Origin: Pseudodesulfovibrio profundus
GTDB lineage: Bacteria > Desulfobacterota > Desulfovibrionia > Desulfovibrionales > Desulfovibrionaceae
Length of the DNA stretch: 64,000 bases
Reading direction: 5' to 3'
Assembly: GCF_900217235.1 (NCBI RefSeq)
Contig: NZ_LT907975.1
Span: 186,001 to 250,000, forward strand
Part shown: one piece after another, positions 2,251 to 44,900 of the stretch
Layout: the number at the start of each line of letters is the position of its first letter
Position numbering within the stretch: position 1 is the first letter of the stretch
Program-made: the position numbers and the translations under genes
The notes under the pieces: generated by a model
Told to the model about the DNA's origin: nothing
What the model saw: only the letters and a program-made list of their open reading frames with translations
Database searches by the model: none

Positions 2251-2967
2251 ATGGCTGAAAAGTCATACGATCTGACTCTGCCCATGGACAAGCTGATCGA
2301 TATTGCCGTGAATAAATTCGGTGATGTTGAATTTCAGGATGTGGCCGTGGGGGGAGAGTCTTTCAAGGTGTTGCAGATTAAAAATATGCAGCAGTATATT
2401 GACAAACTCATGGATAAAACTCGTGCTGGAAAGAGTGTGGTTTTGCCGCTTTGGGCAAAACTGTGGCCTGCCAGCATGGTGATGGGACACTCTCTTTCCA
2501 AATTCTCTTTAAGCGATGATGCAGAGGTTTTGGAAATTGGCGGCGGCGCAGCGCTTTCAGCTCTTGTGCTGGCGCGCAGAGGGTTCTCGGTCACCGTGAC
2601 AGATATAGACCAGGACGCGTTGCTGTTCAGCCGCATCAATGCCTTGAAGAATGATGTGGGAGAGCGCTTTACGGTTGTCAGCAGTGATTTCCAGAATGGC
2701 TTGGGCAAACACTATGACTGTATAGTTGCTTGCGAGTTGCTTTATGAAGAAAAGCAGTTCGATCTGCTGGCTTCATTTATTGATAAGAACCTCGTTCAAG
2801 CTGAGTCCGGAGAAGTATTTCTTTCTTTGGATCTTAAGCGCGTTGCTCAGAATTTCTTTAAAGAGAGCAGCGAGGTTTTCAAAATCATGAAATCGACTGC
2901 AACGTTCAAGGAGCAAGATACAGGTGAAGCCAAACCTGTAAATCTGTTCCGTTTCAAAAGGAAATAG
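2251..2967 (+). CDS. Class I SAM methyltransferase, Methyltransf_16 type
   Basis: 238 aa. The SAM-binding motif I is LEIGGGAA at 94-101, the acidic end of strand 2 is TDID at 117-120, and the family-typical PLWAKLWP motif lies at 66-73. The ACELLYEE stretch near 160-167 takes the place of the catalytic post-motif II loop. PxWAxxWP plus this loop is characteristic of the family that includes protein lysine methyltransferases such as ETFB-KMT, so a protein substrate is likely but unproven. RBS GGGGAGG lies at 2239-2245. The stop is 2 nt from the GTG start of the YcaO gene, so the pair is translationally coupled. A role in the same modification pathway as YcaO is inference. Confidence 0.8.
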   Translation: MAEKSYDLTLPMDKLIDIAVNKFGDVEFQDVAVGGESFKVLQIKNMQQYIDKLMDKTRAGKSVVLPLWAKLWPASMVMGHSLSKFSLSDDAEVLEIGGGAALSALVLARRGFSVTVTDIDQDALLFSRINALKNDVGERFTVVSSDFQNGLGKHYDCIVACELLYEEKQFDLLASFIDKNLVQAESGEVFLSLDLKRVAQNFFKESSEVFKIMKSTATFKEQDTGEAKPVNLFRFKRK

Positions 2968-2969
2968 AC

Positions 2970-4697
2970 GTGATCGTTCTTAAGGACTGCAATAAGCAGT
3001 ATACAACCGATCAGGACAAGGCTTGCTCCCCGCAGGAAACTGTAGCCCGGGTCAGAGACCTGTTGGCAAAGAAATGTGAAGGTGTGTTGGCTGAAACCGA
3101 TCAGGTGGACACCGGACGTTTGGGTATTCCTGTCTTTGTCTCCAAATGTGGGCCGGCTGCAAAAGCTGTCATGCCGACTCGAAAGCAGATGGGTAAAGGG
3201 GCTTCACCGGAACAGGCGGAAGCTTCCGCTCTCATGGAACTTGTTGAACGCTTTTCGTATTTCAGCTTTTGGTCCAACGAAGAGAATTTCGTTAAGTTGA
3301 CGTGGTCTGAAGCTATTGAGAAGTGGCCTGGCCAGGTGATGGATATTTCCAGGATTTCTTGTTCTGTGGACGAAGACATCGCTGACGATGATGCCGTCCG
3401 GCTGATGGACCTGCATAAGTGGCGTTTCCATCCTGCAATGAATATTGCGACCGGTGAACACGAGTACGTTCCTTTGGATTGGTTCAAGAAATTAAATGAA
3501 TTCAACGGTTCCTCTGCGGGTAACACGTTTGAAGAGTCGATATCCCAAGGTGGTTGCGAGCTGGTTGAACGGCATGTTTGTGCTGTCATTGATCGGACGC
3601 GTCCGACACTGCCGACCATTGATTTGAATTCTTCGGATGATCCAGTCTTCAAACGCCTTGTCCAGTGCTTTGAGAAGAATGGTATTACGCTGATCCTCAA
3701 GGACTTTTCCATGGATTACCCGGTGCCGACAGTTGGCGCCATTGCATGGGATGGCAAAACGTTTCCTGCATTGAGTGAAATTGTTTTCACTGCTGGTACT
3801 GCTGCATCGCCTCTGAAGGCAGCCGTGCGTGCAATTACCGAGGTTGCTCAGTTGGCCGGTGATTTTGAAACCAGTCGCGTTTACGAAGCTTCCGGGTTGC
3901 CCAAGTTCACTGATCTTGAGCAGGTGAAATGGCTTCAGGAAGGGGAGATTGTCCCTCTAGATTCGCTTCCTTCCGTAGAAGACGGCAATATCTACGTGGA
4001 ATTGATGACCCTGGCCAAGGGCCTTGAGTCGGGCGGTACCCCGCTTTATTCGGTAGACACCCGTCATCCGGACCTGATGGTAACAACGAACTACAATTTT
4101 GTTCCAGGGTTTGATTTTCGTGAAAGGACACCAAATCGCAGCATAGGTCTTTTTGTCGGTCGTATTCTGGCTGAAGACGCAGACTTTGGAGATGCCTTGG
4201 AAGGGCTTGATGTAATAGAAGATATATATCCTGATTCATACTTCCTTCCGTTCTTCAGAGGTCTGTTGGCTTTGCGGATGGGAGATGTAGAATACGCAAT
4301 CGAGCAGTTTGACGCTGCCGAGCCCCTCCAGCCAGCCAACGAGGAACGAGCACTTGCAGCTTTCTATCAGGCTTATGCGCTGTCTCAGTTGGAACGTTGG
4401 GAAGAGACCGTCAAGCCTCTTGATCGAGCCATTCAGTTGGACAACGATTGTAAGGAATTCTTCAATCTTCGAGGGGTTGCACACTTCAAGGCCGAGCGAT
4501 ACGCGGAGGCTGCACAGGATTTCCAAGCTTCACTGACTATCGACAGTGGCACGGCTCATGATCTTGCCAATCTCGGTCTTTGTCATAAATTCATGGGAAA
4601 TGAGTCTGAAGCTCTTGACTATCTTGGAGCAGCGCTTAAGTTGGACCCAGAGTTGGAATATGCTCGGGCTCACTATGATGAAATAAAGCAATCCTAG
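2970..4697 (+). CDS. YcaO-domain protein with C-terminal TPR repeats
   Basis: 575 aa from a GTG start 2 nt after the upstream stop; AAAGGA at 2957-2962 serves as RBS. YcaO ATP-binding motifs are visible: GKGASPEQAEASALMELVER at about 75-94 and SSAGNTFEES at 181-190, followed by CELVER. Residues about 390-570 are TPR helices (for example AFYQAYALSQLERW, ANLGLCHKFMGNESEAL). YcaO enzymes activate amide backbones with ATP to form azolines or thioamides; E. coli YcaO, which also has a C-terminal TPR-type region, supports RimO-dependent methylthiolation of ribosomal protein S12. No precursor peptide, TfuA or dehydrogenase gene is adjacent. The next gene downstream is dsrC, on its own promoter. Confidence 0.85.
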   Translation: MIVLKDCNKQYTTDQDKACSPQETVARVRDLLAKKCEGVLAETDQVDTGRLGIPVFVSKCGPAAKAVMPTRKQMGKGASPEQAEASALMELVERFSYFSFWSNEENFVKLTWSEAIEKWPGQVMDISRISCSVDEDIADDDAVRLMDLHKWRFHPAMNIATGEHEYVPLDWFKKLNEFNGSSAGNTFEESISQGGCELVERHVCAVIDRTRPTLPTIDLNSSDDPVFKRLVQCFEKNGITLILKDFSMDYPVPTVGAIAWDGKTFPALSEIVFTAGTAASPLKAAVRAITEVAQLAGDFETSRVYEASGLPKFTDLEQVKWLQEGEIVPLDSLPSVEDGNIYVELMTLAKGLESGGTPLYSVDTRHPDLMVTTNYNFVPGFDFRERTPNRSIGLFVGRILAEDADFGDALEGLDVIEDIYPDSYFLPFFRGLLALRMGDVEYAIEQFDAAEPLQPANEERALAAFYQAYALSQLERWEETVKPLDRAIQLDNDCKEFFNLRGVAHFKAERYAEAAQDFQASLTIDSGTAHDLANLGLCHKFMGNESEALDYLGAALKLDPELEYARAHYDEIKQS

Positions 4698-4753
4698 TGG
4701 GTTGGATCGTGTTTCCAGGCCCCGTGATTGTTGTTTTGAAATGCTAAGGATGC

Positions 4754-4782
4754 TTGACAAGACAAAAGGGGAGAAGTAATGT
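4754..4782 (+). promoter_or_regulatory. sigma-70 promoter of dsrC
   Basis: TTGACA at 4754-4759 and TAATGT at 4777-4782 are separated by 17 nt. Transcription would begin near 4789, giving a leader of about 118 nt before dsrC. The perfect -35 fits the very high expression usual for dsrC. Confidence 0.7.
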
Positions 4783-4820
4783 CCCCCCACGGTTTTGGCC
4801 GTATCTTTATATAGGTATCA

Positions 4821-4871
4821 AACAGCGGATCGCTGTTTACATGGATATGGTTGCTCCGAATTGTGTCGGAG
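4821..4871 (+). other. Two tandem hairpins in the dsrC leader
   Basis: AACAGCG/CGCTGTT (4821-4827 and 4831-4837, loop GAT) and CTCCGA/TCGGAG (4854-4859 and 4866-4871, loop of 6) lie between the predicted start of transcription and the AGGAGG RBS at 4895-4900. Neither is followed by a T-run, so they are not terminators; mRNA stabilisation is the simplest reading. Confidence 0.5.
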
Positions 4872-4906
4872 TCCATCTTGAAAAACTATCCACTTAGGAG
4901 GATAAA

Positions 4907-5224
4907 ATGGCTGTTGTTGAATACCAGGGTACTTCTTTTGAGGTTGATGAGGACGGTTTCCTGCAGAAATTCGAAGACTGGACCCCTGATTGGGTTGAGT
5001 ACGTAAAAGAGTCTGAAGGCATCAAGGAAATCACCGAAGATCACCAGAAAGTCATCGACTTCCTGCAGGACTACTACAAGAAGAACGGCATCGCACCGAT
5101 GGTCCGTATCCTCTCCAAGGTCACTGGCTTCAAACTGAAGCAGATCTACGAGCTGTTCCCCTCCGGACCTGGTAAGGGAGCCTGTAAGATGGCTGGCCTG
5201 CCCAAGCCCACCGGCTGCGTATAG
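4907..5224 (+). CDS. dsrC: DsrC, sulfur carrier of dissimilatory sulfite reduction
   Basis: 105 aa, full length. The C-terminal arm GKGACKMAGLPKPTGCV carries the two redox cysteines Cys93 and Cys104, 11 residues apart as in all functional DsrC; these form the DsrC trisulfide during sulfite reduction by DsrAB, which is then reduced by DsrMKJOP. Presence of both cysteines separates true DsrC from TusE/RspA paralogues. Strong RBS AGGAGG 7 nt before the ATG. It is monocistronic between its own promoter and a strong terminator, with dsrAB not in this window, the usual arrangement in sulfate reducers. Codon choice is noticeably biased to C-ending codons (AAG, GAC, ATC) relative to neighbours, as expected of a very highly expressed gene. 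Confidence 0.97.
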   Translation: MAVVEYQGTSFEVDEDGFLQKFEDWTPDWVEYVKESEGIKEITEDHQKVIDFLQDYYKKNGIAPMVRILSKVTGFKLKQIYELFPSGPGKGACKMAGLPKPTGCV

Positions 5225-5246
5225 TTCGCAATCGAGCTTGATATTC

Positions 5247-5277
5247 AAAGGGTGGAAGTTAACCTTCCACCCTTTTT
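5247..5277 (+). terminator. Intrinsic terminator of dsrC
   Basis: Perfect 9-bp stem GGGTGGAAG/CTTCCACCC (5250-5258, 5264-5272) with a 5-nt loop and a TTTTT tract. Confidence 0.9.
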
Positions 5278-5403
5278 CATTTTTCCCTACGTCGGTTGTC
5301 TTGGTGTCGACGCTATCGCAGGCTTTTGGCTGTAAGCTATTTTCTCGAAACTATGTTGCTCATGCCGGTTTCATGGGCTAGTGTTTTTGAAGTATTTTTT
5401 TTC

Positions 5404-5432
5404 TTGCCAAGCGATGGTACAGTGCGTATAAG
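5404..5432 (+). promoter_or_regulatory. sigma-70 promoter of rpmE
   Basis: TTGCCA at 5404-5409 and TATAAG at 5427-5432, spacing 17. The RBS ACAGGAG at 5457-5463 follows after a short leader. Confidence 0.65.
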
Positions 5433-5469
5433 ACCGAGTTCCGAACGAAATTAATGACAGGAGTACGTC

Positions 5470-5694
5470 ATGAAAGCCGATATTCATCCGAAGACCTACA
5501 AGGCTAACTTCCGTTGCCACTGTGGCTACGAAGCCGAATTGCTGACCACCAAAGGCGAGCAGCTTGAAGTCGAAATCTGCTCCAACTGCCATCCTTTCTA
5601 CACTGGAAAGCAGCGTTTTGTTGATACTGCCGGTCGTATTGATCGCTTCCGTAAGAAGTACGCAGCCTTCGGCAAAAACAAAGATTCCAAGTAA
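5470..5694 (+). CDS. rpmE: 50S ribosomal protein L31
   Basis: 74 aa, the normal length for L31. It is the zinc-containing type: CHCG at residues 16-19 and CSNC at 37-40 give the cysteine ligands. The C-terminus has the family signature [21 protein letters not shown] gene order of rpmE, DUF1385, prfA, prmC is recurrent in bacteria and is seen here. Own promoter upstream; a long hairpin follows downstream. Confidence 0.97.
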
Positions 5695-7953: not shown

Positions 7954-8808
7954 ATGTCGCAATCCATAATTGAACTGCTGCAAGTCTGCGAACAGCGGTT
8001 GTTTGCTGTCGATTCACCACGATTGAGTGCTGAGTTGTTGATTGCTCATGTACTTGAGTGTTCTCGTTTGGACCTTGTTCTGAACAAGGATCGGATGCTT
8101 GCATCTGCTGAATTGAGTCAGATTGAAGAGCTGGTTGCACGACGTGAAGGTGGGGAACCAATTGCCTATATTTTGGGGAGTAAAGAATTCTTTGGGCTGG
8201 ATTTTGAAGTTGCCCAGGGAGTGCTTATTCCCCGTCCAGAAACCGAACATCTAGTTGAGGCCGTTCAGGAGCGATTCAGCCCAGATGCTGAATTCCTTTT
8301 TGCGGATTTGGGGACTGGATCTGGAATACTGGCCGTAACGATTGCGACCTTGTTTCCCAACGCAAAAGGAGTCGCTGTTGATTTGAGTCCTGAAGCTTTG
8401 AAGATTGCTTCTCGCAACAGTGTTACACACGGTGTAAGCGATAGGGTTTCATTTGTTCAGGCAGATTTTACCTGCCCTTTGTTTCAGCCTCAGTCTTTTG
8501 ATCTCATCGTTACCAATCCGCCCTATGTTCCGCTTTACGAATATGAAAGCGCGAGCCATGAGGTTGTATCCTTTGAGCCTCGTACCGCTTTGGTGAGTGG
8601 AATTGATGGGCTTGATCATATGCGACTGCTGTTACCTCATGTCGAGAAGGCGCTGCGCTCAAATGGTTCTTTCCTGTCAGAAATCGGATACCAGCACGGC
8701 GATCAGTTGGTGAGAATGTTTACTGATAACTGGCCTGAATTTTATGATGTATTAATTAGAAAAGACCTTTCTGGACATGATCGTATTATAATTTCACAGC
8801 GACGCTAA
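7954..8808 (+). CDS. prmC: Release factor glutamine methyltransferase
   Basis: 284 aa from the ATG at 7954; a TTG one codon earlier is equally in frame and no good RBS precedes either. SAM motif I is DLGTGSG at about 117-123 and the catalytic NPPY is at about 188-191, the signature of Gln/Asn N5-methyltransferases. An N-terminal helical domain (residues 1-80) binds the release factor. Located 21 nt after prfA. Confidence 0.95.
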   Translation: MSQSIIELLQVCEQRLFAVDSPRLSAELLIAHVLECSRLDLVLNKDRMLASAELSQIEELVARREGGEPIAYILGSKEFFGLDFEVAQGVLIPRPETEHLVEAVQERFSPDAEFLFADLGTGSGILAVTIATLFPNAKGVAVDLSPEALKIASRNSVTHGVSDRVSFVQADFTCPLFQPQSFDLIVTNPPYVPLYEYESASHEVVSFEPRTALVSGIDGLDHMRLLLPHVEKALRSNGSFLSEIGYQHGDQLVRMFTDNWPEFYDVLIRKDLSGHDRIIISQRR

Positions 8809-8942
8809 TCTCAAAAAAACAACAGTTTTTCACCAATGTTGTTGTAAAAATACAAGAAGTCGCTAAATCACCACATGCTGAAAATCATCGATAGTTAAGA
8901 TAAAGTCAGTTTCTTCAGTGTTTTATATGAATCAGGGTTTGT

Positions 8943-8956
8943 GGCACATTAATTGC
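8943..8956 (+). promoter_or_regulatory. sigma-54 (-24/-12) promoter of lpxC
   Basis: TGGCAC-N5-TTGCT: GG at 8943-8944 and GC at 8955-8956 are exactly 10 nt apart, matching the RpoN consensus. Start of transcription would be near 8967, 22 nt before the lpxC ATG. About 100 nt upstream an inverted repeat AACAACA/TGTTGTT (8818-8824, 8837-8843) could be an activator site or the end of the prmC transcript. No good sigma-70 promoter is obvious between 8809 and 8940. Confidence 0.6.
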
Positions 8957-8988
8957 TTTATTATGTGTGGTTATCAACCGGAGGAATA

Positions 8989-9909
8989 ATGCTACAAACC
9001 ACTATACATAAAACAGTTCGGTGTACCGGAGTCGGACTCCACAGCGGAAAGCAGGTGGAGATGGTTTTGCGTCCCGCAGCTGAAGATACAGGAATTCTTT
9101 TCTCATTGCACAATGGGGATGGTTCCACTTTCCTTACACCAGCCCCAAACCTTGTTGTTGAAACTGGCTTGGCGACTGTGTTGGGCAATGGGCGCGAGAC
9201 CGTTGCAACGGTAGAGCACTTGCTCGCAGCCGTGTCGGGAATGGGTATCGACAATATACATATCGAAGTGACTGGACGTGAGCTTCCCATTATGGATGGA
9301 AGTGCTGCTTCTTTTGTTTATCTGCTGAAGCAGGCTGGCGTTCGTGAACTGGGCAAGCCACGTACCGTGATGGCAATCAAAAAAGCTATTGAATTTGAGC
9401 AGGATGGCAAGTCCATCAAGGCTCGCCCATATGATGGTTTCCGAGTTGATTACACCATCGAGTTTGCACACCCTCTCATTGGTGTCCAAAATATGTCTCT
9501 TGAGGTGACTCCTGAGAATTTTGTGGCTGAAATCGCAAAAGCAAGAACTTTCGGTTTTCTCAAGGAAGTAGACTATCTCCATGCCAATGGGCTTGCTCTT
9601 GGCGGCTCTTTGGATAACGCAATCGTCCTTGATGAATATGGTGTCCTGAATGCGGAGGGACTCCGTTTCCAGGATGAGTTTGTTCGCCACAAGATCTTAG
9701 ACTTTGTTGGAGATATGGCAGTTCTGGGTGCTCCGCTTCAAGGACATTTCACTGTCTTTGCTTCTGGACATGCAATGAACAATGCTTTCCTGCGTCATAT
9801 CGATGAAAATAGAGAGATGTATCTTGAAACGAAAACATTGGCTGACTCTCTTCGTGTTGAGGAAACCGTACATGAGGGTGTTGTTGAGGCTGCTCCGGTC
9901 CCAGCATAG
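8989..9909 (+). CDS. lpxC: UDP-3-O-acyl-N-acetylglucosamine deacetylase
   Basis: 306 aa, normal length; start at 8989 with CCGGAGG at 8979-8984. LpxC removes the acetyl group from UDP-3-O-acyl-GlcNAc, the committed step of lipid A synthesis. The zinc ligands His77 (VEHLLA), His234 and Asp238 (RHKILDFVGD) and the catalytic His261 (SGHAMNN) are all visible. N-terminal signature HKTVRCTGVGLHSG present. It stands alone between a sigma-54-type promoter and a strong terminator, away from the lpxD-fabZ-lpxA-lpxI genes at 54002-57154. Confidence 0.97.
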   Translation: MLQTTIHKTVRCTGVGLHSGKQVEMVLRPAAEDTGILFSLHNGDGSTFLTPAPNLVVETGLATVLGNGRETVATVEHLLAAVSGMGIDNIHIEVTGRELPIMDGSAASFVYLLKQAGVRELGKPRTVMAIKKAIEFEQDGKSIKARPYDGFRVDYTIEFAHPLIGVQNMSLEVTPENFVAEIAKARTFGFLKEVDYLHANGLALGGSLDNAIVLDEYGVLNAEGLRFQDEFVRHKILDFVGDMAVLGAPLQGHFTVFASGHAMNNAFLRHIDENREMYLETKTLADSLRVEETVHEGVVEAAPVPA

Positions 9910-9930
9910 ATCAGCATTTTTAGATTTCAA

Positions 9931-9964
9931 AAGAAACCCCGCCAAAAGCGGGGTTTCTTTTTTG
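9931..9964 (+). terminator. Terminator of lpxC, probably bidirectional
   Basis: 12-bp stem AAGAAACCCCGC/GCGGGGTTTCTT with loop CAAAA and a following T-run. It lies between convergent lpxC and the last gene of the flagellar operon and can serve both. Confidence 0.92.
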
Positions 9965-9977
9965 GGCTGGTAACGGC

Positions 9978-10796
9978 TTATTGCTTGAATAGTATTTCAG
10001 CTAAAATGCCACCATGCTGATGTTTGGGAAGAGGGCCAACACCCAAGCAGTGAAAGTTGTCAAACCCTTCAATATGGCAAGTACCAAGTACTCTCTTGAT
10101 TTGGTTGGCGTAGCTGGGGTGTTCAAGGCGTAAGCGGTAGCTGACCGCTGATGGCTTGTACAAAAAGTCTGCTCGGATGAGTCCAAGACTCGGTAGCTCT
10201 AGTTCGTAACGTACCTCTGAGATCCCTACTGGGTCTAGTTTCATCAATCCGATGTGGTTGCGTGCTCCTGCGACGATCCAAGGAGTATAAAACAGTATAC
10301 CATTTTTATGCTGATCAATTGTTGAATTGATAGTTTTTATACAATTGATTGTATCGACATATGCGGCGAACAATTGATCGTTTGATGAAAGCGCATCCAG
10401 GAAGTGTCTTTTATCAGCAGATTGACCGAAGCCAACCGTAGGCTTTTGCTGATGAAATCTTGTTTGAAATAGGGTGCGAGCGGTTTCAAAGTTCCTCGCA
10501 AGAGAGAGTGCTCCAGAATTTCCACCCGTTGGGGCGAAGAGCTCTTTCAAGACAATATCGGGGTTGAGTTGCTTGATGACAAAGGTGAGTGTTGCGCCAA
10601 CAAGCGGCTTGGAGTTGAGTTGAGCCAATAGTTTATGGCCTTCAATATTGACCCATGCCATATCGCCTGAGACCCATTTCAGTAGGGTTCCTCTGACTTT
10701 ATCATCAACTTTTCGACCTTTCTTGAACGTATCCGAGCGACTGCCTCCACGGCTGAACAAGCCAAAGAAGCCTGGACCTGAGTTGTGGAACCCCAT
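9978..10796 (-). CDS. FliK-like flagellar hook-length control candidate
   Basis: 272 aa, last gene of the flagellar operon, 2 nt after the DUF2802 gene. I do not recognise it with certainty. Residues 30-75 (GTLLKWVSGDMAWVNIEG..LLAQL.....GATLTFVIKQL) look like the small beta-barrel found in N-terminal parts of FliK-like proteins. Residues 190-255 (LDPVGISEVRYELELPSLGLIRADF) resemble the C-terminal Flg_hook domain, with its LxLxPxxxGxVxV pattern. The first 25 residues are Gly/Ser/Phe-rich. If correct it would take part in hook-length sensing or export switching at FlhB, encoded in the same operon. Confidence 0.5.
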   Translation of the reverse strand: MGFHNSGPGFFGLFSRGGSRSDTFKKGRKVDDKVRGTLLKWVSGDMAWVNIEGHKLLAQLNSKPLVGATLTFVIKQLNPDIVLKELFAPTGGNSGALSLARNFETARTLFQTRFHQQKPTVGFGQSADKRHFLDALSSNDQLFAAYVDTINCIKTINSTIDQHKNGILFYTPWIVAGARNHIGLMKLDPVGISEVRYELELPSLGLIRADFLYKPSAVSYRLRLEHPSYANQIKRVLGTCHIEGFDNFHCLGVGPLPKHQHGGILAEILFKQ

Positions 10797-34067: not shown

Positions 34068-34776
34068 GGGGCTGTACCAGATAACTCCTTTGGGTTATCG
34101 GTATGGCAATGCGAAAAAGTCGTTTGAGCAAGGACAAGCAGCTTCGTTTAATCGAACATTTTGTGGCTGGCACGACAGCTCGTTGCGCTGCCGATCTGGT
34201 TGGTGTGAACGTCAAAACAGCCGCCTATTACTTTCACCGGCTCCGGGAAATCATAGCGGTAGAAGAGTCCTGTGAAGGGATGGATTTTGGCGAATTTGAG
34301 GTCGATGAGAGCTACTTCGGTGGCAAGCGAAAGGGCAAAAGAGGACGTGGGGCGGCTGGTAAGGTTCCTGTTTTTGGAATCCTTAAAAGGGGCGGGAAGG
34401 TCTATACACAGGTGATTCCTGATGCGAAAGGTAAAACCTTGCTTCCCATTATTCAGGAAAGAATCCAGCCAGACAGTGTGGTTTACTCGGACTGCTGGTA
34501 TGGCTACAATGTCCTTGATGTGTCAGCGTTCAAACACTTCCGAATCAACCACTCGAAGCTGTTTGCAGATAGCCACAACCACATCAATGGAATCGAGAAT
34601 TTTTGGAACCAGGCCAAACGCCATATGAGGAAATTCAACGGCATTCCAACCAAGCATTTTTCTCTGTTTTTAAAGGAATGCGAGTGGCGTTTTAATAACA
34701 GCAATCCGCGAAGCCAGTTTAAACAACTGAAACAGTGGGTTAGAAGACATATGGGCTAGTTATCTGGTACAGCCCC
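34068..34776 (+). mobile_element. IS1595-family insertion sequence, copy 1 (709 bp)
   Basis: Perfect 19-bp terminal inverted repeats GGGGCTGTACCAGATAACT (34068-34086 and complement at 34758-34776), one transposase gene, and an 8-bp target duplication TAAAAAAG at 34060-34067 and 34777-34784. The size, IRs starting GGG and 8-bp duplications fit IS1595. It landed in the T-tract of the por terminator; the duplicated 8 bp restore that terminator. It is identical to the copy at 44192-44900 over all compared sequence. Confidence 0.95.
34103..34759 (+). CDS. IS1595-type (ISXO2-like) transposase, copy 1
   Basis: 218 aa. The N-terminus has a helix-turn-helix (TARCAADLVGVNVKTAAYYFHRL) that should bind the terminal repeats. 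The DDE-type catalytic domain shows Asp in EVDESYFGGKRKGKRG, Asp in YSDCWYGY and Glu in GIENFWNQAKRHM. The stop codon touches the right inverted repeat. Complete and apparently active, given its identical sister copy. Confidence 0.95.
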   Translation: MAMRKSRLSKDKQLRLIEHFVAGTTARCAADLVGVNVKTAAYYFHRLREIIAVEESCEGMDFGEFEVDESYFGGKRKGKRGRGAAGKVPVFGILKRGGKVYTQVIPDAKGKTLLPIIQERIQPDSVVYSDCWYGYNVLDVSAFKHFRINHSKLFADSHNHINGIENFWNQAKRHMRKFNGIPTKHFSLFLKECEWRFNNSNPRSQFKQLKQWVRRHMG

Positions 34777-44191: not shown

Positions 44192-44900
44192 GGGGCTGTA
44201 CCAGATAACTCCTTTGGGTTATCGGTATGGCAATGCGAAAAAGTCGTTTGAGCAAGGACAAGCAGCTTCGTTTAATCGAACATTTTGTGGCTGGCACGAC
44301 AGCTCGTTGCGCTGCCGATCTGGTTGGTGTGAACGTCAAAACAGCCGCCTATTACTTTCACCGGCTCCGGGAAATCATAGCGGTAGAAGAGTCCTGTGAA
44401 GGGATGGATTTTGGCGAATTTGAGGTCGATGAGAGCTACTTCGGTGGCAAGCGAAAGGGCAAAAGAGGACGTGGGGCGGCTGGTAAGGTTCCTGTTTTTG
44501 GAATCCTTAAAAGGGGCGGGAAGGTCTATACACAGGTGATTCCTGATGCGAAAGGTAAAACCTTGCTTCCCATTATTCAGGAAAGAATCCAGCCAGACAG
44601 TGTGGTTTACTCGGACTGCTGGTATGGCTACAATGTCCTTGATGTGTCAGCGTTCAAACACTTCCGAATCAACCACTCGAAGCTGTTTGCAGATAGCCAC
44701 AACCACATCAATGGAATCGAGAATTTTTGGAACCAGGCCAAACGCCATATGAGGAAATTCAACGGCATTCCAACCAAGCATTTTTCTCTGTTTTTAAAGG
44801 AATGCGAGTGGCGTTTTAATAACAGCAATCCGCGAAGCCAGTTTAAACAACTGAAACAGTGGGTTAGAAGACATATGGGCTAGTTATCTGGTACAGCCCC
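44192..44900 (+). mobile_element. IS1595-family insertion sequence, copy 2 (709 bp)
   Basis: Same 19-bp perfect inverted repeats as the copy at 34068-34776, with 8-bp target duplication TTAGTAAA at 44184-44191 and 44901-44908. Intact duplications on both copies show two separate and recent transpositions, not a recombination. Confidence 0.95.
44227..44883 (+). CDS. IS1595-type transposase, copy 2
   Basis: 218 aa, identical to the product at 34103-34759, with the same DNA-binding region and DDE residues. The reading frame is complete with no frameshift. Confidence 0.95.
   Translation: MAMRKSRLSKDKQLRLIEHFVAGTTARCAADLVGVNVKTAAYYFHRLREIIAVEESCEGMDFGEFEVDESYFGGKRKGKRGRGAAGKVPVFGILKRGGKVYTQVIPDAKGKTLLPIIQERIQPDSVVYSDCWYGYNVLDVSAFKHFRINHSKLFADSHNHINGIENFWNQAKRHMRKFNGIPTKHFSLFLKECEWRFNNSNPRSQFKQLKQWVRRHMG

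Follow-up and report, generated by a model that had tools for sequence, protein, structure and literature searches.

Why should genes for a methyltransferase and a YcaO-TPR protein stand directly ahead of dsrC in a sulfate reducer? DsrC is the carrier of the sulfur intermediate in dissimilatory sulfite reduction, a globally important process. The question is raised by a 64,000-nucleotide stretch of the Pseudodesulfovibrio profundus genome (NZ_LT907975.1, positions 186,001 to 250,000; hereafter the window). Our best explanation, which is held tentatively, is that the YcaO-TPR protein is a maturation enzyme for DsrC that would thioamidate its C-terminal arm, most likely at Gly89, and that the methyltransferase would also methylate a lysine of DsrC. 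Obtained directly were the conserved linkage of the genes, the co-occurrence of the enzyme with dsrA, a rule linking the enzyme to Gly89, and the fold of both enzymes.

A sequence check places the methyltransferase, YcaO-TPR, and dsrC genes in that order on the + strand between positions 2251 and 5224 of the window. This bears out the arrangement and positions described in an earlier, sequence-only reading of this DNA, in which coupled Methyltransf_16 and YcaO-TPR genes precede dsrC. The features are as follows.

2251..2967, + strand: METTL21-like (Methyltransf_16) methyltransferase, a putative protein-lysine methyltransferase of 238 amino acids (PF10294, AlphaFold2, Foldseek).
2970..4697, + strand: YcaO-TPR protein of 575 amino acids with a GTG start (PF02624, TPR_1, AlphaFold2).
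3513..3572, + strand: codons of the YcaO ATP-binding motif Sx6Ex3Qx3ExxER, residues 182-201, SAGNTFEESISQGGCELVER (motif as described in a passage of PMC7774982).
4907..5224, + strand: dsrC, encoding a canonical two-cysteine sulfur carrier of 105 amino acids (TIGR03342; DsrC chains of 2xsj and 2v4j).
5048..5050, + strand: DsrC Lys48 codon; the Desulfovibrio vulgaris counterpart is reported as trimethylated or acetylated (PMC3125180, Table 1).
5138..5140, + strand: DsrC Lys78 codon; the D. vulgaris counterpart is reported as trimethylated (PMC3125180, Table 1), a candidate site for the methyltransferase.
5171..5173, + strand: DsrC Gly89 codon in the GPGKGACKMAG arm, the thioamidation site proposed from sequence comparison.
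5247..5275, + strand: terminator-like hairpin 3' of dsrC with a 12-pair stem and a T-rich tail, a consensus match only.

Only 2 nt separate the methyltransferase stop from the YcaO-TPR start in the window. The corresponding gap is −14 to +14 nt in 26 of 31 measured pairs and 33-155 nt in the remaining five, values that are approximate because the starts were placed by alignment. The gap between YcaO-TPR and dsrC is larger (209 nt in the window and 160-374 nt across 30 measured loci), and because of this spacing dsrC probably has its own promoter; a sigma-70-like scan of positions 4600-5500 gave no promoter ahead of dsrC. The dsrC product scores 121.3 bits with TIGR03342 (curated cut-off 53.5), and among solved structures its nearest matches are the DsrC chains of the sulfite reductases 2xsj and 2v4j. 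It carries both arm cysteines, at positions 93 and 104 (GPGKGACKMAGLPKPTGCV).

What kind of YcaO enzyme is encoded next to this carrier? The YcaO domain spans residues 74-381 (PF02624, 191.1 bits; gathering score 25.7) and is followed by a C-terminal TPR domain at about residues 391-575 (TPR_1, 52.8 bits). The superfamily ATP motif Sx6-7Ex3Qx3ExxER is complete, and in an alignment of 25 sequences E189, E197, E200, and R201 are invariant while S182 and Q193 are present in at least 90%. The best solved match to the AlphaFold2 model (pLDDT 92.7) is the YcaO protein of Methanocaldococcus jannaschii (6peu_B; Z 38.8, root mean square deviation 2.7, 345 residues). Among NCBIfam models the best is TIGR03266, named for McrA-glycine thioamidation, which gives 108.2 bits and does not reach its cut-off of 365. 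Also below their cut-offs are TIGR03604 for SagD-type cyclodehydratases of ribosomally synthesized and post-translationally modified peptides (RiPPs; 76.9 bits, cut-off 219.25) and NF040716, or YcaO_for_S12 (50.1 bits, cut-off 700). Because the McrA, S12, and SagD cut-offs are all missed, the protein is placed by these models in a separate YcaO subfamily.

The McrA-glycine YcaO of methanogens (TIGR03266; 6PEU/6PE3) therefore provides the nearest fold and the best family model, and the glycine target proposed here would be a further shared trait. Each would act on a central protein of anaerobic respiration. Unlike the methanogen enzyme, the window protein scores below the TIGR03266 cut-off, has a fused C-terminal TPR domain, and is linked to dsrC. 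Escherichia coli YcaO (NF040716) is likewise a free-standing YcaO protein with a C-terminal TPR-type domain and no RiPP precursor, and its thioamidation of a folded protein resembles the activity that we propose. In contrast to the likeness in architecture, the E. coli enzyme is the more distant in fold (Z 30.2), its model fits poorly, and the substrate proposed here is a different one.

An invariant cysteine of the TPR part (Cys538) was considered as a sulfur relay and was dropped, since it is no longer invariant once distant families are added. The genome also encodes a second, different YcaO protein of 572 amino acids, with the YcaO domain at its C-terminal end (L002, G000:C1:124110-124979), in a gene that abuts a transposase gene. 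An identical 218-amino-acid transposase translation occurs in at least three copies in the genome (window 34103-34759 and 44227-44883; L002:542-1198).

Gene neighborhoods were surveyed, the check proposed with the sequence-only reading, and linkage to dsrC proved to be conserved in the Desulfovibrionaceae and beyond. In a sample of 149 genomes of this family, DsrC was found in 142 and 99 YcaO-TPR loci could be placed. The dsrC gene lies within 1.5 kb at 69 of these 99 loci, representing 22 of 33 genera. A methyltransferase gene is present at 86 loci and both partners at 61, and all 86 genomes with the METTL21-like methyltransferase carry YcaO-TPR. Among 41 neighborhoods examined in detail (the window and 40 fetched stretches, a few of them short), dsrC occurs in 30, or 31 if L047, where the contig breaks off within dsrC, is counted; the methyltransferase occurs in 35, and the next commonest neighbor in 13. 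All six window flanking genes are missing from 19 of the 30 dsrC-linked loci, and the complete trio is kept in 18 of these 19, so the three genes are retained though their surroundings change. Background synteny was accordingly rejected as the sole cause of the trio, the block of response regulator, Tim44, DUF1385, prfA, prmC, and lpxC genes being limited to close relatives. Within the family the linkage persists at 50-60% YcaO identity.

In several Desulfovibrionaceae dsrC is present in two nearly identical copies, of which only one adjoins YcaO-TPR (L086-L090; G028, G117, G013, G139, G029). The copies away from YcaO-TPR likewise encode Gly89.

Is the association confined to this family? Of 395 Desulfobacterota genomes, 151 gave YcaO matches, and 148 were kept as canonical. 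The three removed were G149, a false match (A1 match 1e-31) that lacks PF02624, and the pair G186 and G281 of family f39, which have only a variant of 484-485 amino acids and a distant YcaO. A scan of wider contigs gave only close relatives of the Desulfobacterota type, and the survey covers the Desulfobacterota alone. Outside the Desulfovibrionaceae, canonical DsrC (E ≤ 1e-40) is encoded in 129 of 134 genomes with a YcaO match, and the two genes are no more than 1.5 kb apart in 24 of 130 placed genomes, from 10 of 39 families. YcaO precedes dsrC in f30, f48, f55, f61, f66, f79, f84, and f93, and the order is reversed in f16, where dsrC is ahead by about 150 nt in 9/9 genomes. In 2 of 11 genomes of f29, the neighbor of dsrC is a second, shorter YcaO copy about 510 nt away (485 amino acids in G246). 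Among 40 fetched neighborhoods from other families, canonical dsrC is found in nine, with a dsrC paralog (40% identical) at L150 as a tenth case, and the next commonest neighbor in five.

A METTL21-like methyltransferase (at least 45 bits) is absent from all 40 of these neighborhoods. The proposal that methyltransferase and YcaO form a pair thus stands for the Desulfovibrionaceae, where alone the two are paired, and fails for the other families. Since dsrC adjoins YcaO in some of those families as well, the association of YcaO with dsrC is broader than the trio, and it appears to have more than one origin. In G246, the short YcaO gene (L264:14440-15897) and dsrC (L264:16401-16721) are separated by a small helix-hairpin-helix-like gene, and G481 is arranged likewise; the distance to the full-length YcaO-TPR gene is about 8.5 kb in G246, against 13.7 kb in G481.

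Nearly all genomes with the enzyme also encode sulfite reductase. A dsrA gene (E ≤ 1e-100) is present in 190 of the 395 genomes, among them 144 of the 148 with canonical YcaO-TPR (p 2e-60, uncorrected for kinship), which leaves 46 dsrA-positive genomes that lack the canonical enzyme. By family the pattern is nearly all-or-none, with the enzyme in 40 of 54 dsrA-positive families after removal of G149. No YcaO domain of any kind was found in the 11 YcaO-less, dsrA-positive genomes examined (11/11).

A further trait that accompanies the enzyme is a residue of the DsrC arm. In every genome with both canonical YcaO-TPR and a detectable dsrC, the arm reads GPGKGACKM (143/143 genomes); the remaining 5 of the 148 gave no DsrC match, and one of them, G258, has a partial YcaO only. 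Gly89 is present in 75/75 DsrC sequences from YcaO-TPR genomes. In dsrA-positive genomes of other families that lack the enzyme, 32 of the 35 sequences seen have Ala89, mostly accompanied by Leu, Val, or Ile at position 95, and the other three (G181, G329, and G359) retain Gly89. The f39 pair, also without the canonical enzyme, has Ala89 yet keeps Met95, and for this reason residue 89 is favored over residue 95 as the target. Met95, which in addition lies outside the reported modified peptide discussed below, was set aside. Among 141 DsrC sequences, Gly89 is the sole site near-invariant with the enzyme that is altered in G131, an enzyme-less member of the Desulfovibrionaceae, as well as in the f39 pair. 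This pattern was noticed post hoc, after inspection of the sequences.

Sulfite reductase itself served as a control. The number of columns that are invariant in 12 YcaO genomes and changed in all six YcaO-less genomes is 0/155 in DsrA and 0/133 in DsrB. The same comparison in DsrC (8 of the 12 YcaO genomes, the same six others) gave 7/58, and of these seven columns Gly89 alone is also altered in the f39 pair. In these alignments, it is DsrC and not DsrAB that diverges together with YcaO. The sequence-only reading had offered the cysteine arm of DsrC as a conceivable target; an arm residue does track the enzyme, although the best candidate is not a cysteine but Gly89, four residues before Cys93.

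Other features of DsrC were recorded. Position 34 (Lys34), distant from the arm in sequence, holds Lys in 74 of 75 sequences from YcaO-TPR genomes and Ala in 6/6 control sequences without the enzyme, and so is a second position that separates the two groups. Family f82 (L330-L334), with neither a strong dsrA match nor YcaO, encodes a DsrC-like protein that has GPGKGACKMAG and ends in KPEGC or KPDGC, which suggests a DsrC for some other use.

The YcaO-TPR protein DVU2210 of D. vulgaris, whose ATP motif (SAGNTEEESILQGSCELVER) equals that of L054 in 19 of 20 residues, is by sequence most likely the ortholog of the window protein. Judged from the locus numbers DVU2210 and DVU2776, its gene presumably does not lie beside dsrC. 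Passages of published work on D. vulgaris bear on modification of DsrC. In a pull-down study (PMC3125180), the DsrC peptide ESEGISDISPDHQK*IIDFLQDYYK was reported as trimethylated or acetylated, and the peptide LK*EVYELFPSGPGK as trimethylated and oxidized with three baits, at scores of 1.5-1.7 (an asterisk follows the modified residue). The latter corresponds to DsrC residues 77-90, which include Lys78 and Gly89. Since this peptide contains Gly89 but lacks Met, Trp, and Cys, a thioamide may account for its additional 16 Da. A link between the two proteins is also suggested by lines evolved under syntrophy, in which DsrC acquired missense mutations in six lines and DVU2210 was among the high-score mutated genes (PMC8319347).

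The methyltransferase is the less certain partner. It scores 39.2 bits with PF10294 (Methyltransf_16; gathering cut-off 21), and in a Foldseek search its AlphaFold2 model (pLDDT 91.9) matched human METTL21A-D chains at ranks 1-7 and a calmodulin-lysine methyltransferase at rank 8. E95, G97, D118, and E162 are invariant in 19 family members, and the post-II motif reads ELLY, which we take to fit the (D/E)xxY type of Methyltransf_16 lysine methyltransferases. METTL21A-D are protein-lysine methyltransferases (PMC10238732). The window enzyme shares with them the fold, PF10294, and the post-II motif; unlike them it is bacterial and only 18% identical to the best match, and from the model it is a putative lysine methyltransferase. 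A paralogous methyltransferase (28% identical) is encoded elsewhere in the genome of the window (G000:C1:767189-767794) and in many other genomes of the family, YcaO-less ones included. It is a candidate for the methylation reported on ApsA, ApsB, and RplL of D. vulgaris (PMC3125180).

How might the proposed maturation proceed? YcaO-TPR would bind DsrC and take in its flexible C-terminal arm, with the TPR domain perhaps holding DsrC or forming the dimer. The YcaO domain, using ATP, would phosphorylate a backbone amide oxygen of the arm, most likely that of Gly89, and sulfide, which is plentiful in a sulfate reducer, would displace the oxygen to give thioglycine, as in McrA of methanogens. In the Desulfovibrionaceae, the co-transcribed METTL21-like enzyme would add a second mark at DsrC Lys78 or Lys48. 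The modification might stiffen or tune the hinge that precedes Cys93 in the trisulfide arm and would not be essential for respiration in the laboratory. The steps of this reading are not equally secure. That DsrC is the substrate rather than a sulfur donor is probable; if so, the chemistry is likely to be a thioamide, and if that holds, Gly89 is the likely site. Action of the methyltransferase on DsrC is possible but doubtful.

DsrC and its homolog TusE are sulfur carriers, and persulfidated DsrC could instead donate sulfur to YcaO-TPR, which would thioamidate another protein, with DsrC replacing TfuA or ThiS-like carriers. We consider this somewhat unlikely. It fits the linkage and the phyletic profile equally well, and a sulfur-transfer context is seen where full-length YcaO-TPR genes lie by what we take, from reading of the sequences, to be genes for a NIL-domain ferredoxin-like protein and an MnmA-like tRNA thiolase (L264:5704-9005; L165, about 8652-10130). 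According to PMC13063428, how sulfide reaches the E. coli enzyme is unknown, and high-sulfide organisms can in general manage without a TfuA carrier. Left unexplained by a donor role is the fixation of Gly89, a non-cysteine residue, in 143/143 genomes, though a docking surface is conceivable. A further reading, which we judge unlikely, is that the enzyme acts on some other Dsr-pathway or energy-metabolism protein and that its gene lies near dsrC only through pathway membership. Such a target would account for the co-occurrence with dsrA and recalls the reported methylation of ApsA and ApsB (PMC3125180) and the finding that cells without DVU2210 become resistant to molybdate only if sat is lost as well (PMC7774982), where the substitution S195R in the ATP motif acts too and a molybdate-adenylating side reaction was proposed for DVU2210. 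However, the recurrent partner in the fetched neighborhoods is dsrC and no other dsr or aps gene, and in the tracking comparison, which covered DsrA, DsrB, and DsrC, no DsrA or DsrB column follows the enzyme.

The gene could also have been co-inherited with one dsrC clade by descent and transfer, with no biochemical interaction, so that Gly89 is a clade marker. Reductive-type DsrC splits into two main clades, a split noted without explanation in PMC10504309, and residue 89 has changed few times on the tree. Against this quite improbable reading, the linkage outlasts changes of both flanks, loss of proximity to dsrAB, reversal of gene order, and divergence of YcaO to 50-60% identity, and DsrA and DsrB show no such split. 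The ribosome, S12 in particular, had been named in the sequence-only reading as another possible target. Membership in the same superfamily and a shared TPR part are what commend S12 or uL16, as for E. coli YcaO, but this is very improbable: the S12 model falls far short, the fold is nearer to the methanogen YcaO (Z 38.8 vs 30.2), confinement to dsrA-positive genomes would be left unexplained, and the E. coli enzyme was itself shown in vitro with sulfide to thioamidate Met82 of uL16, not S12 (PMC13063428). The same reading's broader claim, a Dsr protein as the target of the pair and DsrC as one candidate, is partly supported, by linkage, dsrA co-occurrence, and the tracking of Gly89; the only published mass data are ambiguous.

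Against maturation of DsrC by YcaO-TPR weigh a number of observations. In the Desulfovibrionaceae, dsrC is not adjacent as counted at 30 of 99 loci (including 8/8 in genus g38, whose YcaO motif is one residue off that of DVU2210, and 8/8 in genus g40; at least one, G020, was counted as unlinked because its contig ends inside dsrC), and in most other families the two genes are not adjacent. No YcaO match was found in 43 of 190 dsrA-positive genomes, and dsrD failed as a marker that would explain them, being present in 29 of the 43. Of the four YcaO genomes that lack dsrA, two (G061 and G447) are close to complete and encode DsrC. Among enzyme-less Desulfovibrionaceae sampled, Gly89 is kept in 23 of 24, with Ser in G131 (L111), and the Gly motif occurs without the enzyme in 10 genomes from other parts of the phylum, of which seven lack dsrA. 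Gly89 thus does not require the enzyme; on these sequences the rule is one-way, from enzyme to Gly89 and not the converse, which fits the expectation for a substrate site. No more than three changes of residue 89 are seen on the DsrC tree, and a sign test is not significant. The approximately unbiased (AU) test does not reject a single origin for the Ala forms (p 0.785), with the f39 pair and the remaining Ala sequences united in a clade, and the pair was withdrawn as an independent Gly89-to-Ala event. Lys48 and Lys78 failed as markers of the enzymes, since both are conserved with and without YcaO and methyltransferase.

The published data also permit another account. According to the pull-down study, cysteines were blocked with iodoacetic acid and mass accuracy was insufficient to tell trimethylation from acetylation (PMC3125180). 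The computed masses are 58.005 Da for carboxymethylation, 58.042 Da for trimethyl plus oxygen, and 58.024 Da for trimethyl plus thioamide. The +58 Da peptide may therefore be a reagent artifact, stray carboxymethylation fitting the sum about equally well. A strain deleted for DVU2210 is described as growing on sulfate similarly to wild type, with a raised fermentative yield (PMC7774982). McrA thioglycine is likewise dispensable except under stress (PMC5589413).

Thioamidation by YcaO proteins is known for McrA and uL16. A search of the open-licence literature, with subscription papers outside its scope, gave no paper on DsrC as a target, the dsrC linkage, the phyletic profile, or the Gly89 rule. 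It is possible, though on balance doubtful, that one large group of sulfate reducers has a DsrC thioamide at Gly89 made by YcaO-TPR, together with trimethyl-Lys78 made by the METTL21-like partner in the Desulfovibrionaceae. The prediction pinpoints a single residue, Gly89. If it is true, then DsrC would be the third protein thioamidated by a YcaO enzyme, after McrA and uL16, and DVU2210, a gene known from molybdate sensitivity and mutations in syntrophic cultures, would gain a function. The two reductive DsrC clades would differ by a thioamide modification, and a modified arm would change the interpretation of the trisulfide mechanism, of assays that use recombinant unmodified DsrC, and of isotope models.

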